Positions 12,948-19,447 of a DNA stretch of 64,000 nucleotides are shown piece by piece (position 1 is the stretch's first letter; each line of letters opens with the position of its first letter). Made by a program: the position numbers and the translations under genes. The notes beneath the pieces are model-generated. The model was given only the letters and a program-made list of their open reading frames with translations, was not told the DNA's origin and searched no databases. Origin of the DNA: Calothrix brevissima NIES-22 (GTDB taxonomy: Bacteria; Cyanobacteriota; Cyanobacteriia; Cyanobacteriales; Nostocaceae); NCBI RefSeq assembly GCF_002367995.1, contig NZ_AP018207.1, forward strand, positions 4,153,083-4,217,082, written 5' to 3'.

Positions 12948-14312
12948 ATGACAGGCAAAAACGCAAGACATAATGCATTTCTGCGGCTAGTGTCTGGTAA
13001 TGGGGCACCTCTTAGGTCAGAATTCCGCTACTCGCTGCTCCCAAGTCAAGAGATGATCGTTGGACGCGACCCCAGCTGCCAAATTGTCTTGGATGCCATG
13101 ATGTATCGGATGGTATCTCGTCGTCATGCTGTGGTTCGTCCGCTCTCTTCCCCAGATAACAAATTTAGCTGGCTCATTTGTGATTTAAATAGCGCTAACG
13201 GTACGTATTTAAACGGACAACGCATCCAGGGTTGTCAAGAATTACAGCCAGGCGATCGCATTTCTTTAGGTGCTGACGGGCCGCAATTTGTGTTTGAGCA
13301 TGATTATGTACCCCAAGCCACAATCATGACCAGGCCAGCCACACCCCTGCCATCACCAGGAAGTTACCCCGCACCATTAAAATCTGATTCGGTGAGCTTT
13401 ACTCAACTGTTCCCGATTATTTCCACTGGTAAAGATTTAACTCGTAAAGCTTATCTCATACCAGGGATTTTAACTGTAGTATTTGTGGTATTAATGTTTG
13501 CTACGGTAGGCAGACCACAAGCCAATCAAGTGATTGTTGCTAGTTATATAGCCTTTGCCGCTTATTACTTTGTCTACCAACTCTGCGGTAAACAAAAGCC
13601 TTGGTGGGTACTAGCATCTGTAGCTTTAGGTACCGCAATAATATTGAAAAGTCCCCTATTGGATTTGTTTATTTTTGTATTTCGCGGTTTATTGCCTGGG
13701 AACTTACCTTCATCTCAGGATACCCTAACCTTCACCGAATTGCTGATACGGATGTTTTTTGGTGCAGGTTTAATGGAAGAATTACTGAAAGCATTACCTG
13801 TATTAGCAGCTTTAGCTATTGGCCTGATATTGCCCTCACCTTGGCGAGAACGCATAGGTATTTGGGAACCTTTAGATGGCATTCTCTTAGGAACTGCTTC
13901 GGCTGTAGGTTTTACTTTATTAGAAACCCTGGGTCAATATGTGCCTGTTATTACTCAAAATGTAGCCCAACAAGCAGGGGTAGGCACTGGTCAACTCGTA
14001 GGTTTACAATTACTAATTCCGCGAATTTTAGGTTCTGTAGCCGGACACATGGCTTACAGTGGCTATTTGGGCTATTTTATCGGTTTAGCTGTACTCAAAC
14101 CCCGTCTAATTTGGCAAATTCTCCCCATTGGGTATGTAAGCGCGGCTGCACTTCATGCCTTATGGAATGCTACTGGTTCAATCAATGCCTTGTTATTGGT
14201 AATTGTTGGGGTATTATCCTACGCCTTTTTGATGGCAGCCATTTTAAAAGCTCGTGCCCTTTCGCCCACGCGATCGCAAAATTTCGCTACTCGCTTCCTC
14301 GGCCCTAAATGA
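12948..14312 (+). CDS. FHA domain fused to a PrsW-type intramembrane protease
   Basis: 454 residues. An N-terminal FHA phosphothreonine-binding domain occupies about 38-125, with VGRDPSCQIV, SRRHAVV and NSANGTYLNG as its signature loops. A Pro-rich linker follows, then a membrane domain from about 165 to 440 with eight or so hydrophobic segments. This domain carries the PrsW (M82) signature: EELLKA near 277, a second glutamate in FTLLETLGQ near 322 and a histidine in GHMAYSG near 368. PrsW in Bacillus cleaves an anti-sigma factor; the substrate here is unknown. An FHA on such a protease implies control by, or recruitment to, phosphorylated partners. It is divergent from the CHAT-FHA and PP2C genes just downstream, which fits a common signalling theme. 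Confidence 0.85.
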   Translation: MTGKNARHNAFLRLVSGNGAPLRSEFRYSLLPSQEMIVGRDPSCQIVLDAMMYRMVSRRHAVVRPLSSPDNKFSWLICDLNSANGTYLNGQRIQGCQELQPGDRISLGADGPQFVFEHDYVPQATIMTRPATPLPSPGSYPAPLKSDSVSFTQLFPIISTGKDLTRKAYLIPGILTVVFVVLMFATVGRPQANQVIVASYIAFAAYYFVYQLCGKQKPWWVLASVALGTAIILKSPLLDLFIFVFRGLLPGNLPSSQDTLTFTELLIRMFFGAGLMEELLKALPVLAALAIGLILPSPWRERIGIWEPLDGILLGTASAVGFTLLETLGQYVPVITQNVAQQAGVGTGQLVGLQLLIPRILGSVAGHMAYSGYLGYFIGLAVLKPRLIWQILPIGYVSAAALHALWNATGSINALLLVIVGVLSYAFLMAAILKARALSPTRSQNFATRFLGPK

Positions 14313-14319
14313 GGGAGGA

Positions 14320-14397
14320 GGGGGACAAGGAGGACAAGGAGGACAAGGAGGACTATTGACCATTGACCATTGACCATTGACCATTGACCATTGACTA
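14320..14397 (+). repeat. 9-mer (GGACAAGGA) and 7-mer (CATTGAC) arrays
   Basis: Three copies of GGACAAGGA are followed by about six copies of ACCATTG/CATTGAC. Confidence 0.8.
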
Positions 14398-14580
14398 TTT
14401 TCTACCTTGAGATAGATAGCACTGCTTCCGCAATCAGCCTATAGTTGGAATTATACTAGGAAAACCTTGTTTAAAAATAACGAGAAAAAAGTATAAGACC
14501 CGCAATACAAGCGTCGAGTGCGGGCAAAAGCAAGAAGTCGCCTGAATTAACTGACCCCTAAGGGATAAAAGACAACTGAT

Positions 14581-15219
14581 TTAGGATTCTGACTGAAAGC
14601 TGTGAAGTTGGGTCAGAGCATAGTAAGAAATCGCTAAACTAACCTTTGCTCGCTCGACATCTGATAAACTTGCCCATTCCTTATTTTCAAATTTACTCAT
14701 CACAGATCCTGGGTTATGTGGTTCTCCGCTACGCATAGCATAGGCATAAGGACGGGCTAAAACTAAGAGATCTTCTGCTGCCCAAGTTGGTAACACTCCT
14801 TGAACACATTCCACTAATTGCTCGCCAAGAGATTGCTGGGAGGTAAACATCTCAGTGGCTTTTTGGGCAATGTTATTTAGCCATTCTTGGGGTATGGCTG
14901 CGGCAAAAGCTGCTTGGAGATTAGCGAATAAATTCTGACTGCTATGAGCTTGTTCTGGGGAATCAGTCGCATCTTCGGGCCATAGTGTATCAAGTTGTTG
15001 GTAAAAACCATGCGATCGCGTATTTAGCTCTTGTTCATCCCATAACTCATCGCTAAGAAACTGCTGTTCTAAAGCGCAAAAATAAGCATCTGATTCACTA
15101 TCAGCAGGGTTCCAAGGATAAGTTGCATCTTCTACTTCCAGTAAAGCGGCGAGGAAATCTAATTCGACTTGAGATGCTAAAGAAGTGAAATTTTCTGAAT
15201 TGTTAATATTGTTAATCAT
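14581..15219 (-). CDS. Conserved-looking acidic protein of unknown function
   Basis: 212 residues, acidic, without signal peptide or membrane segments, and rich in Leu, Ala, Glu and Gln with predicted helices. A strong GGAGG ribosome site stands 7 bases before the ATG at 15219. I do not recognise a domain. The C-terminal third (WASLSDVERAKVSLAISYYAL) looks like a helical bundle. It lies between the FHA-PrsW gene and the CHAT-FHA gene. It is on the strand of the CHAT-FHA gene, so it is downstream of CHAT-FHA and the PP2C gene, about 235 bp from the former. It could be a partner or substrate of that module; nothing in the sequence proves this. Confidence 0.65.
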   Translation of the reverse strand: MINNINNSENFTSLASQVELDFLAALLEVEDATYPWNPADSESDAYFCALEQQFLSDELWDEQELNTRSHGFYQQLDTLWPEDATDSPEQAHSSQNLFANLQAAFAAAIPQEWLNNIAQKATEMFTSQQSLGEQLVECVQGVLPTWAAEDLLVLARPYAYAMRSGEPHNPGSVMSKFENKEWASLSDVERAKVSLAISYYALTQLHSFQSES

Positions 15220-15454
15220 TTGTCGCCTCCCTTGTTGATGATTGAGTTGATTATTTAGCGGTATTGACAGCTACAACTGTGCTTATCCCATTTCCGCAAA
15301 AATCAAATGAAATTTGCTGAGGATGAAAATATTTTTTCAGGCTGTTATTTTTTGGATAATCATTGAAATGCGATTAGTAATTTGGATTTACACAAACTAC
15401 ATAAATCACTCCTGTCTTGACAAGAAATCAAAACACGTTAGGTGTATGAACTAA

Positions 15455-17050
15455 TTAGGAGTCTTCAATAATAAACTCCCAAGTTTCACCTCTAGAACTC
15501 CCAAACTTTAACTGCATTCCTGAGGTTAAAGGTACTTCCTCGCGGAGGATTTGTTGCCAGCCATTAGAACTAGAAACCCAGGTTGTACCGTAGGTAGATA
15601 AATCTTGTAAATAATAAGTTCTAACTGGATTTGTCCCGCTAAAAGTATTCCGACATAAAATTTCCGCATGGCGTTTAGACACAGAAGGTTCGGGAATGAC
15701 AAGATCGTTGTCTTTAGTCCGACCAATGCGGGTGACACCAGAACGCAACAAGCAAGTTTTATCTGGTACTACCAGCGATCGCAACGAAGCTGTAGGTACC
15801 GAAGCAATTATACTCGGAATTGTCGTATCTGGTAGCTCGGTAATTCCTTCATCAAAACTTTTAATTAGTTCGCCATCAAAATCAGGATGGAGATAGAGAA
15901 CTGGTAAAGTCCAGGCTGGTTGATTAAACCGATATACTGTTAACAATTGTTGTCTAGCTTGGGCGACAGCTTCATCAATTGGTTTACGCGATCGCAATGC
16001 TTCGGTAAAAGCTTGAATAAAACTGTGGCTTTCCGCATCCGCAATTTCATCTCGCATTCCCAAAACTGCCGGTACGCCATGACGAATTAACACTTCTGCC
16101 AAACTGCTAGAAGGTATTGCTTGTTGATTAACTGCCGCAGGTTGTGCTAACCAACAAGCATTAAACACCGCTAATTTCACACCATTGCGGGTCAATACCT
16201 GAGCTAATTCTATGCCATTGAGAGTCATCTTTGGTCGTAAAAATAGTAAACCCCCGTCTGGATCGGGTAAACCATGACCGGCATAGAAAAAGACATTGTA
16301 TGCTTTAGTTTCTAATTCTTGAATTAATTCCTGTGGTTGGGGTTGCAGCAATGTAGTTACCATACATGGTGCATATCCCTGAGAATAACTACCTAAAGGC
16401 CCTGCTTTAGTCAGAGTTTGTTTTAAAATTTCTGCTTCTTTTTCTAGTTGCAGATTTTTATTTTCATTTTCGCCTAATACCAACAGAATTTTCAGCGTCT
16501 GTTCTATACGTAAAGGCGGTAATGATTCAACTTCACTCGTAGTTCGACTAAAGAGTAAATCTTGTGACAGCGACATTACCGATTGACCGGCTTCACGCTG
16601 CATAATTTCCCAAGGTAAGGCAATTAAATCCGGATCGCGAATTTCCAAGCGAAAGCGCAATCGGCTATGCTGTCCCATAGCTATACCCCGACTGCGTTCT
16701 AAACTACCGAGAATTGGCCCGTCAAATAACCAGCGCCACAGACTCATTCCCAAGTATTGCATCAGACGACTGCTATAACCTGCTGTTTGCCCTGAAGGGG
16801 ATGAATTCAAATTTATTGGTAATGGGGCTTTCTGTGGGAGGGATGCACCAGAAGCAATATTTAAAGGGTTATCACCTCCGAACATTTCCTGCCATTCTTG
16901 CCAAACTTGAGAGAGTTCAACTGGCCATATACAGTCATGCAAAACATAGCCACTAGGATAAGGCGCTTTAACTACCCAAATGGCAAAATTATCTGTGCCA
17001 GTGTTGGTCAAACGAGCGATCGCCAGGTTCAGGCATGGCAATGAAGTCAT
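15455..17050 (-). CDS. CHAT-domain (caspase-like) protein with C-terminal FHA domain
   Basis: 531 residues from the ATG at 17050; a TTG seven codons upstream is a weaker start. Residues about 190-385 form a CHAT domain, a caspase-fold peptidase: the catalytic histidine is visible in FYAGHG near 258 and the cysteine in FNACW near 297. The C-terminus (about 430-520) is an FHA domain with RIGRTKDNDLVI, SVSKRHAEIL and LSTYGTTWV. There are no membrane segments. Both catalytic residues are present, so activity is plausible. CHAT proteins can act in bacterial signalling and programmed-death pathways; the partner here is unknown. The FHA would bind phosphothreonine, and a PP2C phosphatase gene lies directly upstream on the same strand. 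Confidence 0.85.
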   Translation of the reverse strand: MTSLPCLNLAIARLTNTGTDNFAIWVVKAPYPSGYVLHDCIWPVELSQVWQEWQEMFGGDNPLNIASGASLPQKAPLPINLNSSPSGQTAGYSSRLMQYLGMSLWRWLFDGPILGSLERSRGIAMGQHSRLRFRLEIRDPDLIALPWEIMQREAGQSVMSLSQDLLFSRTTSEVESLPPLRIEQTLKILLVLGENENKNLQLEKEAEILKQTLTKAGPLGSYSQGYAPCMVTTLLQPQPQELIQELETKAYNVFFYAGHGLPDPDGGLLFLRPKMTLNGIELAQVLTRNGVKLAVFNACWLAQPAAVNQQAIPSSSLAEVLIRHGVPAVLGMRDEIADAESHSFIQAFTEALRSRKPIDEAVAQARQQLLTVYRFNQPAWTLPVLYLHPDFDGELIKSFDEGITELPDTTIPSIIASVPTASLRSLVVPDKTCLLRSGVTRIGRTKDNDLVIPEPSVSKRHAEILCRNTFSGTNPVRTYYLQDLSTYGTTWVSSSNGWQQILREEVPLTSGMQLKFGSSRGETWEFIIEDS

Positions 17051-17179
17051 TAAACTTAAATGTGAAAACAATTATTTTCAATAACAGTTTTTCCAGGTAA
17101 AAGTCTTTACCTTGGCAGTTTTGGATTTTGGTTACTACCTGTATTATTTCAGGTTTTATCAGTTTATAGCGCAATTCAA

Positions 17180-19447
17180 CTAAGTTGCATCACCTTCGGC
17201 TTGTGGTTTAGTTACAGGTGCCTGATTTGCTGGCTCTGGCTTTTGAGGAACGCATGGATTTGGTTTATCGGCTTGGAGAACAGTCACCCCTGATTTAAGT
17301 TGAGAAAGTTCAATTTTGACTGTTTTTTCTGGTATTTGTCCAGCAGCAATATTCTTATCGGGATTGGCGGTGTCTTGATTATTCGGACACACGCGCAAAG
17401 TCACTACAAATTCTGAATTAGGAGATTGGGGATTTTGTGGTTTTTTGTCAATTACTTGAAAAAAAGTCCCGCTAGGAAATTTATCCTTGCTATTAATTAT
17501 GTCATTCTGAGCTTCAATCACCCAACCTGCCGCCAAATTATCAATGGTTCGCTTGGTTGCTGGGCGATCGGGATTTGGCTGTGAACTAGGGCTAGGGCTA
17601 GTAGCAGCAATTTGCTGTTTGCCTTCGCGCAATTGCATGACTAAGTATCCCAGACTACCAACTATCGTTACCAAAATTAAAGGTACAATCAACTGTAGGG
17701 GTAATTGAGCAAAGCCGCTACGCTGCTTGTATTCATCAGGAATAACTTTGGTTTTAGCGTTGGGATTGCTGACTAAAATCGGCTGTGCTGTTGTCGGATA
17801 TGGCTCAGTAGAATTACTAATAAACGAGCTTTCGGGGATGATTGCTGTTACACTTAACTCTGGTTCTGTATATTTTGCCTGATAATGTACTAAAGCAATG
17901 GTGACATTATCGTGACCGTTTTTGGTATTGGCGATTTCGACTAATTTCTCTGCCACGCTAGCGATATCTGCTTCGGCTTTGAGAATAGGTAAGATTTCTG
18001 TTTCCCAGTAATCTTCGATGCGGTCAAAATCACTTAAGCCATCGGATGTGAGTAAGAATACAGCATCTTCATCAAGAATAAACCTCTGGGCGGTGGGATG
18101 AAGCGATGTACTAGGACTCATCCCTAAGGCTTGGACTAAAGACCCAGAACCACTTTGTTGGATGGCTTCTCGATAGATAGCGTAGCCTAACCTAACTTCG
18201 CGGGAGGCAACATCATCATCTAAGGTAACTTGATAGCAACCTTGGCGGGTAATCCAATAGGCACGACTATCACCCACATGGGTAATATAAATTTCATGAC
18301 CGATGGGTAATGCCATGACTATAGTCGTACCCATGCGTTGACGACCTTGACGATTTTCGCTGTCGTTGCGCTGGCTGATTTTGTCATTGACAACTGCTAC
18401 CGCCGATTCTAAGTCAGTCAGTAGCAGTGAAGGATCGATATGGTCGGCGGGAACTTGTGTGAGTCGCTGTACCTGCTGTTGAATTGTTTCAATGGCTAAA
18501 TTTGAGGCGACATTACCACCTTCATGACCGCCAATTCCGTCACAGACAATGGCTAAGGCGGTAGATTGAGGCGGTTTGGTGACTAAAGTCCCACTGAGAG
18601 GATAACAAGCATCTTCATTGCGTTGGCGACTGGGGCCTGTATCGGTTTTGGTAAAAATTTTAATATTAGAGGTTTGCGATCGCCCTAATTGACCTAATCC
18701 TCGATCTAATGCTGCAATTAATTGTTCGGCTGAATTTATTTCTTCTGCTATTAAAGAATTACTAATTTTGTGAATAAATTCCGCTATGGCTGGTTTTGCT
18801 GTCTGCTCTAACTGCTGCCAAAATTTCCCTAATTCCGATAAACTCGGCTGGATACCAGCGTCAGAATGCAAGTCTAACAAGCGGACTAAAGTACCTTCTA
18901 CTCTAATTAAATCTGGTTTAAGTATGGTTGTAGCCACACCTTCACTTAACAGTGGTTGCCACAGATTGGCTAATTGCCACAGCCAGTGCAGTTGGCGTAT
19001 AGAACTAGCATTACCCCAAGCAGCGATTAAATTTGGGTAGAGTTGGACTTGCTGCCCAGTACTATCGGTAAATATTGGCGGTTTTTCTAAAAGTAATATT
19101 TCTTGTTGAGAGCGTCCCTCAATGGGCGGTATAACTCCATACACTTGGGGCACTTGTACGCGATAAGGTATCAGCCGCAAATAAGGTCTAATGACAGACA
19201 AACTTTCTAATTCTGGTGCATCGGGAACTAACCCCGGTCTGATATCTAAGACCACAGAGCGATCTATAACTAAATAGCGATCGCCTAATATTTCTCCTGG
19301 GGTGGCAAAACTCAAGCCTTCACCCTGCACCCAAAGATAGCGCTTAGGTATAGCTGTAGAACACCGCAAGCAAAACTTATGGGTTAGGGGATTGGGAGAT
19401 TGACAAAGTTCATTTGGGCAGTAGAGCGTGGGAGCATCATTTTCCAT
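17180..19447 (-). CDS. Zinc ribbon / pseudokinase / PP2C-type Ser/Thr phosphatase, membrane-anchored
   Basis: 755 residues from the ATG at 19447, chosen over a TTG 21 bases upstream. An N-terminal zinc ribbon has C10, C15, C26 and C29. A region at about 45-250 starts GDRYLVIDRSV and contains LKPDLIRVEG followed by LVRLLDLH. This resembles a protein kinase C-lobe in which the HRD aspartate and the DFG motif are lost. A PP2C phosphatase domain spans about 265-525, with TDTGPSRQRNED, VCDGIGGHEGG, THVGDSRAYW, SDGLSDF and GHDNVT, so all metal-binding aspartates are present. One membrane segment follows near 586 and a C-terminal tail of about 150 residues. It is upstream of the CHAT-FHA gene on the same strand, 129 bp away. 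It probably dephosphorylates Ser/Thr sites read by the neighbouring FHA domains. Confidence 0.85.
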   Translation of the reverse strand: MENDAPTLYCPNELCQSPNPLTHKFCLRCSTAIPKRYLWVQGEGLSFATPGEILGDRYLVIDRSVVLDIRPGLVPDAPELESLSVIRPYLRLIPYRVQVPQVYGVIPPIEGRSQQEILLLEKPPIFTDSTGQQVQLYPNLIAAWGNASSIRQLHWLWQLANLWQPLLSEGVATTILKPDLIRVEGTLVRLLDLHSDAGIQPSLSELGKFWQQLEQTAKPAIAEFIHKISNSLIAEEINSAEQLIAALDRGLGQLGRSQTSNIKIFTKTDTGPSRQRNEDACYPLSGTLVTKPPQSTALAIVCDGIGGHEGGNVASNLAIETIQQQVQRLTQVPADHIDPSLLLTDLESAVAVVNDKISQRNDSENRQGRQRMGTTIVMALPIGHEIYITHVGDSRAYWITRQGCYQVTLDDDVASREVRLGYAIYREAIQQSGSGSLVQALGMSPSTSLHPTAQRFILDEDAVFLLTSDGLSDFDRIEDYWETEILPILKAEADIASVAEKLVEIANTKNGHDNVTIALVHYQAKYTEPELSVTAIIPESSFISNSTEPYPTTAQPILVSNPNAKTKVIPDEYKQRSGFAQLPLQLIVPLILVTIVGSLGYLVMQLREGKQQIAATSPSPSSQPNPDRPATKRTIDNLAAGWVIEAQNDIINSKDKFPSGTFFQVIDKKPQNPQSPNSEFVVTLRVCPNNQDTANPDKNIAAGQIPEKTVKIELSQLKSGVTVLQADKPNPCVPQKPEPANQAPVTKPQAEGDAT

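Follow-up and report, generated by a model that had tools for sequence, protein, structure and literature searches.

A co-inherited CHAT-FHA protease and acidic orphan protein in a conserved cyanobacterial neighborhood with FHA-PrsW and PrpJ-type phosphatase genes

Four neighboring genes in Calothrix brevissima NIES-22 raise the question of whether proteolysis in cyanobacteria might be switched by protein phosphorylation. The genes, designated F, U, C, and P for reference, lie within a 64,000-nucleotide stretch of contig NZ_AP018207.1 (assembly GCF_002367995.1; positions 4,153,083 to 4,217,082, forward strand), which is referred to in its entirety as the window and which supplies the coordinates given below. 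An initial annotation, made from the sequence alone, had described them as a possible phosphothreonine-controlled proteolysis module, and that interpretation is partly supported by the comparisons reported here. All four are genuine, intact open reading frames at the positions first noted for them, with F on the plus strand converging on U, and with U, C, and P all on the minus strand, as had been described:

12948..14312, plus strand: F, FHA-PrsW intramembrane metalloprotease, 454 amino acids (Pfam PF13367 and PF00498), probable counterpart of alr1728
14581..15219, minus strand: U, acidic all-helical orphan protein, 212 amino acids, probable counterpart of all1729
15455..17050, minus strand: C, CHAT (HetF-like caspase fold) protease with a C-terminal FHA domain, 531 amino acids (PF12770 and PF00498), probable counterpart of all1730 (number inferred)
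17180..19447, minus strand: P, zinc ribbon, uncharacterized N-terminal domain, PP2C domain, and one transmembrane segment, 755 amino acids (PF13672), probable counterpart of all1731 (prpJ)

The ATG at 17050 is the simplest start for C, with a TTG upstream at 17071 also possible, and the length of P is counted from an ATG.

Paired occurrence of U and C

The best-supported new result, and a firm one, is that U and C form a pair. Profile searches of a class-wide sample of 194 genomes detected U in 94 genomes (threshold, 1e-5) and C in 94 (1e-100, a threshold chosen to exclude paralogues, which could also hide fragments), with both genes present in 93 genomes and neither in 99, so that the presence of the two genes agrees in 192 of the 194 genomes. 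Of the genomes with both genes, 75 had U downstream of C and 18 had the two unlinked, on different contigs (15 genomes) or far apart on the same contig (3 genomes). The two exceptions were G017, with U alone, and G398, with C alone; C in G398 ends 139 bases from the end of its contig, on the side where U would be expected. A survey of 224 genomes of the order, conducted with single-sequence queries that are less sensitive than profiles, detected U in 163 genomes, C in 154 (1e-60), and P in 217 (1e-60), with U and C common to 148.

The gene all1729 is one of the ten genes, hetR, patU3, and hetZ among them, that make up a published "core set" of filamentous species (PMC2821919, available in part). 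We doubt that U is a filament-only gene, as listed in that 2010 comparison, because U spreads broadly across families.

Domains and conserved residues of the four proteins

The domain content assigned to F, C, and P in the initial annotation was borne out by Pfam matches above the family cutoffs. The CHAT domain of C (residues 101 to 374) matched PF12770 at 7.9e-21 (75.2 bits; cutoff, 24), and its FHA domain (residues 440 to 517) matched PF00498 at 7.4e-14 (52.4 bits; cutoff, 20.7). Residues that we take to be important in the FHA, PrsW, CHAT, and PP2C families were followed in alignments. For C, the alignment consisted of 100 proteins: that of the window, those of 19 distant loci, and those of 80 named relatives, which were the best 80 of 511 by similarity to C and are biased toward the kin of the window. 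H259 and C299 of the CHAT domain were kept in all 100 proteins, as expected for a CHAT peptidase, and R444 and S458 of the FHA domain were kept in all 100 as well. Simple hydropathy scans, from which all counts of hydrophobic segments given here were obtained, detected no such segment in C. In the linker between the CHAT and FHA domains (residues 404 to 407; window positions 15830 to 15841), Thr404 was found in 99 of the 100 proteins and Pro407 in all 100, and this stretch might serve as an internal FHA ligand.

C is a paralogue of HetF, not HetF itself. Its match to the HetF model NF045509 reached 154 bits against a cutoff of 1200 and covered residues 94 to 399 only. The same genome has 11 further places that match C at E values up to 1e-3 (twelve including C itself; L001 to L008), and the best of these, with 34% identity over residues 94 to 399, is HetF (1497 bits against the NCBIfam cutoff of 1200). 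The likeness to the HetF (alr3546)/PatU3 (alr0101) pathway of Anabaena lies in the CHAT cysteine-protease fold, with the His and Cys in matching motifs, and it may extend to the existence of a protein partner for the protease; in the portion of the published account available, HetF is able to cleave PatU3 (PMC12288457). C differs from HetF in bearing an FHA domain and lacking a hydrophobic segment, whereas the HetF plan, as far as the available account describes it, has a transmembrane segment and a TPR region after the CHAT domain. Another cyanobacterial CHAT regulator, All2170, is encoded by a separate gene; an excerpted report on a phage-resistant Nostoc strain implicates that gene in the strain's loss of N2 fixation (PMC10811720). 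No mention of all1730, and no joint mention of a CHAT domain, an FHA domain, and cyanobacteria, was found in the searchable literature, the coverage of which excludes most subscription journals.

U is acidic (isoelectric point, 4.09) and without a recognized family, as had been stated in the initial annotation. It matched no Pfam or NCBIfam family above cutoff, no PDB sequence at better than E 0.25, and, in a Foldseek search with its AlphaFold model, no PDB fold at E≤0.001. The model is all-helical, with nine helices, and of moderate confidence (predicted local distance difference test score [pLDDT], 70.2); no hydrophobic segment was detected. Membership in a known family was rejected: the window protein had only a match to HipA_2, which was below cutoff (0.022), and one match (0.0065) was obtained among 21 relatives. 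Conservation peaks at Y34-P-W and at an ARPxAYAMR stretch, in which R156 and P157 are invariant in 21 diverse sequences. U is most likely a dedicated substrate, adaptor, or inhibitor of C.

F combines a PrsW domain (residues 217 to 432; 5.4e-35; 121.2 bits; cutoff, 23.5; PF13367) with an FHA domain (1.1e-18; 67.9 bits; cutoff, 20.7; PF00498). Forty-three F proteins were aligned, from the window, 18 of the 20 distant loci (F is absent from the stretch of L046 and interrupted by a stop in L054), and 24 of the 74 intact F genes among the 80 relatives. E277, E278, E326, H367, H403, and N407 of the PrsW domain, of which the Glu and His residues are presumably catalytic, were kept in all 43. The profile match, these residues, and five hydrophobic segments place F in the PrsW family. 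Its FHA domain is canonical, with R40, S57, N84, and a His kept in 43 of 43 proteins, and is predicted from the profile match and the Arg, Ser, and Asn to bind phosphothreonine. Fusions of PrsW with FHA, PilZ, cyclic-nucleotide, or Zn-ribbon domains were proposed in 2012 to be signaling peptidases (PMC3482391, available in part). The architecture of F is the same as that of the FHA fusions, whereas the available part of that account gives no cyanobacterial function or neighbors for them.

Two further observations on F were made. Its C-terminal tail (residues 434 to 449; window positions 14247 to 14294) reads KARxLSPTRxQNFATR, near-invariant in the 43 sequences, with a conserved S-P and T. F matches with an internal stop codon occurred in G008, G032, G074, G108, G167, G179, G180, and G216, and in L054, the locus of G180, F is divided into two frames.

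The profile match, metal-binding Asp residues, and fold of P are those of a PP2C phosphatase. P matched the Pfam family PP2C_2 (PF13672) at 1.1e-11 (45.1 bits; cutoff, 24), and its model matched PstP (2cm1; E value, 4.6e-11) and tPphA in Foldseek searches; scores against the NCBIfam models PRK14559 (246.9; cutoff, 374) and Stp1 (160.1; cutoff, 230) were below the cutoffs. The metal-binding residues D279, D303, D393, D469, and D513 and the N-terminal Cys10, Cys15, Cys26, and Cys29 were invariant in 55 of 55 aligned P proteins (the window and 54 of 77). The catalytic residues reported as visible in all three enzymes are thus invariant in the alignments of F, C, and P. A single hydrophobic segment (residues 586 to 604) agrees with the description of P as a membrane-anchored PP2C.

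The label "pseudokinase" that P had been given did not hold. Three profile tests of residues 36 to 262 did not support it: there was no PDB match up to E 10, no kinase family was matched at E 1 in 18 members, and hhalign comparison with nine kinases of the same genome gave a probability of 0.8%. The model of P has a mean pLDDT of 60.1 and is confident only in part in the region between the zinc ribbon and the PP2C domain, where the predicted order of helices and strands is at most reminiscent of a kinase C-lobe.

Counterparts in Anabaena and candidate regulation

F, U, C, and P are probably the counterparts of alr1728, all1729, all1730, and all1731 (prpJ) of Anabaena sp. strain PCC 7120, on the basis of their order, their strand pattern, and the positions of FurA boxes. 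The order in the window, F(+), U(-), C(-), P(-), NdhM(-), ..., and an Npun_R1517-type gene(+), fits the tags alr1728, all1729, all1730, all1731, all1732, ..., and asr1734. The tags alr1728, all1729, all1731, and asr1734 are taken from print, and all1730 and all1732 were filled in by number; we take all1732 to be NdhM.

The FurA boxes published for this region (PMC4005646) were sought in seven loci. In Nostoc parmelioides (L073), all 19 letters of the asr1734 box (published at 388) were matched at -387; five other loci had their best match at -387 to -395, with 1, 1, 2, 4, and 6 mismatches, the best match of L100 lying elsewhere. The alr1728 box published at 205 was found at -204 in Nostoc parmelioides with 3 mismatches (16 of 19 letters), at -203 in L089 with 4 mismatches and in L129 with 6, and at -220 in L100 with 6; up to 3 mismatches, this box occurs four times in 3.2 million bases (both strands, L073 included).

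alr1728 and prpJ are already known as genes required for aerobic N2 fixation, and U and C are essentially unstudied. The prpJ (all1731) mutant is described, in the available excerpt, as lacking the major heterocyst glycolipid and as unable to fix N2 under oxic conditions (PMC6161253). P, with its intact PP2C domain and one transmembrane segment, probably occupies the place of prpJ. PrpJ was reportedly located in the plasma membrane (according to the title of a 2007 paper) and is said to have later been called PrpJ1, PrpJ1 and PrpJ2 being the subject of a 2009 paper known by title. alr1728 is reportedly covered by a ten-genes paper of 2011, and asr1734 is said to be a negative regulator, both again by title. 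F probably occupies the place of alr1728, with the FurA box of Nostoc parmelioides one position from the published one. The accessible part of the published account presents alr1728 as a Fox gene; its function is given as unknown, two FurA boxes are predicted for it, and FurA overexpression raises its transcript (PMC4005646). That account, as far as it is available, gives no domain or mechanism for Alr1728, whereas F has an FHA-PrsW architecture and conserved active-site residues. The initial annotation knew of no described system with this combination: the set as a system was not found described in the literature searched, and three of the four counterparts have been published singly, as has the FHA-PrsW fusion.

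The gap between C and U contains a further feature:

15261..15274, no strand assigned: GTAN8TAC palindrome (NtcA-like), 42 to 55 bp before the U start codon

This pattern, which presumably represents the NtcA motif, was present in the C-U gap of 58 of the 80 Nostocaceae loci of the relatives, compared with about 3.3 expected from a background of 0.227 per kb, and its first base mostly lay 38 to 46 bp before the U match; over the whole window the pattern occurred 20 times, compared with 10.3 expected. The palindrome fits a candidate NtcA-like site. A canonical NtcA promoter before U was rejected, as no -10 box at class-II spacing was seen by eye. A similar site before C (17097 to 17110) had a counterpart in only 9 of 79 P-C gaps. 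Between F and U, which converge, short direct repeats, GAGGACAAG and ACCATTG units, lie at about 14312 to 14405.

Gene order and competing explanations

Conservation of the neighborhood extends well beyond one genus, in line with the linkage that had been anticipated. All 80 relatives have U, never more than 634 bases from C; P was present in 79 (L095 had no P match) and F in 75. Three of the five loci without F end within 350 bases of U, whereas the sequence at the other two, L085 and L120, runs on for over 9 kb. The order in the 20 distant loci was often def-F-U-C-P-ndhM-leuD (def and leuD named by eye from the sequence).

Linkage across the order was counted among the matches listed, which represent 150 of the 163 genomes with U, 150 of 154 with C, 150 of 217 with P, 150 of 218 with ndhM, and 114 of 114 with F. 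Neighbors were defined as lying within 5 kb, and only the best P match per genome was used, many genomes having two. U and C adjoin in 96 of 141 genomes, on the same strand in 96 of 96; C and P in 56 of 128, always on the same strand; F and U in 57 of 98, with the strands opposite in every case; and F and C in 44 of 94. All four genes were listed in 87 genomes and clustered in 31, which come from nine families.

Individual loci vary. L056, L057, and L058 (families f9, f21, and f2) have F, U, and C without an adjoining P, and no second P was seen near C; the best P match of G121, the genome of L057, is elsewhere, adjoining ndhM. At L044 (4818 to 8039), the one locus read among the six C-less genomes of family f18 given below, no C lies between U and P.

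We tentatively read the region as a conserved cyanobacterial neighborhood for Ser/Thr phosphosignaling and proteolysis, with U and C at its core and F and P beside them, that was drawn into heterocyst maturation in heterocyst formers; this seems a reasonable possibility, short of a probable one. The core would be a two-gene unit of C, a soluble CHAT cysteine protease of the HetF type that also bears an FHA domain, and the co-inherited U. A Ser/Thr kinase would mark a membrane or regulatory protein, and the FHA domain of F, and perhaps that of C, might hold the protease on the phosphothreonine-marked partner, so that cleavage would release or destroy a regulator. C may act on or with U, and P (PrpJ), the membrane-anchored PP2C, would remove the marks and reset the system. 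Placement of all four genes in one pathway, phosphothreonine binding, cleavage, and a partner role for U are inferred. In favor of the proposal are the adjacency and co-occurrence of U and C, the F-U neighbors and the four-gene clusters of nine families, the canonical FHA and PrsW residues of F, the kept CHAT His and Cys, the kinship of C to HetF with its reported cleavage of PatU3, the published findings on alr1728, and the NtcA-like site before U.

Several observations weigh against this proposal. P adjoins ndhM in 83 of 104 genomes, a higher proportion than for C and P, and remains next to ndhM in 29 of 42 genomes in which C and P are separated; conversely, C and P stay together in 6 of 19 genomes in which P and ndhM are separated. 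To our knowledge, ndhM has no role in this signaling. Gene order alone is therefore no proof of a single module, the synteny being in part that of an old block, and four-gene linkage as proof of joint function is weakened accordingly: the linkage expected by the initial annotation exists, and P is tied more tightly to ndhM than to C. F is present in just 114 of the 224 genomes of the order (1e-40), and 8 of 116 F matches listed carry an internal stop codon, which could mean that the gene is broken or that the match ends there. The order survey gave 15 genomes with U alone and 6 with C alone. In six genomes of family f18 (G017, G067, G085, G102, G119, and G134), F, U, and P stay together with no C detected at 1e-60; U is therefore not strictly dependent on C. 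The loop Asn of the C FHA domain is replaced by Tyr, Phe, or His in 99 of the 100 aligned proteins and present in 1, so that C lacks the full Arg/Ser/Asn set of a phosphothreonine reader; of the two FHA domains for which binding residues had been anticipated, only that of F is complete. For the assignment to Anabaena genes, the first alr1728 box was not at its published place in L074, L078, or L108, and for the second (published at 531) every match in the seven loci had 6 mismatches or more.

The ndhM comparison makes gene order weaker evidence for joint action than it appears, and it is quite conceivable, though we would not call it probable, that only U and C are a functional unit and that F and P are independent signaling genes within a slowly shuffled ancestral block, def-F-U-C-P-ndhM-leuD. 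The closer linkage of P to ndhM than to C is what such a block would be expected to give, as are the def-, ndhM-, and leuD-like genes, named by eye, on the flanks of the set at many of the 20 distant loci. When U and C are separated, C and P remain together in only 7 of 32 genomes, and U and C remain together in 43 of 68 genomes in which C and P are separated. P is near-universal in the order and F patchy. However, the counterparts of both F and P have N2-fixation or heterocyst phenotypes in the available accounts, an FHA domain, a protease, and a PP2C make a sensible reader-eraser set, and F, U, and P have remained together where family f18 lost C.

A more elaborate version of the proposed neighborhood is a phosphothreonine-gated switch of two proteases, in which a kinase/PrpJ cycle would control FHA-PrsW and FHA-CHAT, U would be the substrate or inhibitor of the caspase, and the whole, older than heterocysts, would have been co-opted for their maturation as a second HetF-PatU3-like axis. 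We consider this version doubtful.

It also seems unlikely that the FHA domains of C and F are constitutive docking modules, rather than phosphothreonine readers, in a system controlled by transcription in response to nitrogen or iron. The missing loop Asn of C, the NtcA-like palindrome before U in most of the relatives, and the reported response of alr1728 to FurA, in the part of that account available, are all consistent with such control. Conservation of the FHA Arg and Ser of C in every protein aligned and of the complete FHA set of F in all 43 would be unexpected for merely structural domains.

CHAT proteases with dedicated substrates operate in type III-E CRISPR and gasdermin systems, and yet it is highly improbable that the cluster is a mobile island for phage defense or programmed death built on a CHAT caspase and its substrate. 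This reading was rejected, as none of the four proteins matched a PADLOC model at 1e-3, all 15 surveyed genomes of the family of the window match all four genes, and the place is chromosomal and stable: of the loci of the 80 relatives, 76 contain ndhM and 61 contain the nitrate gene narM.

The proposed phosphosignaling neighborhood would bring together alr1728 and prpJ, two N2-fixation/heterocyst genes that apparently lack a shared explanation in the available parts of the literature. Reading them with their neighbors assigns testable roles: Alr1728 would be an FHA-gated intramembrane protease, All1730 a HetF-like protease, and All1729 its partner. The HetF-PatU3 pathway is a precedent for the control of cell fate by CHAT proteolysis in these organisms, and a second, phosphorylation-linked axis, if it exists, would tie the large cyanobacterial set of Ser/Thr kinases to regulated proteolysis. 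The genome of C. brevissima NIES-22 itself contains 66 kinase-domain matches at 1e-30.

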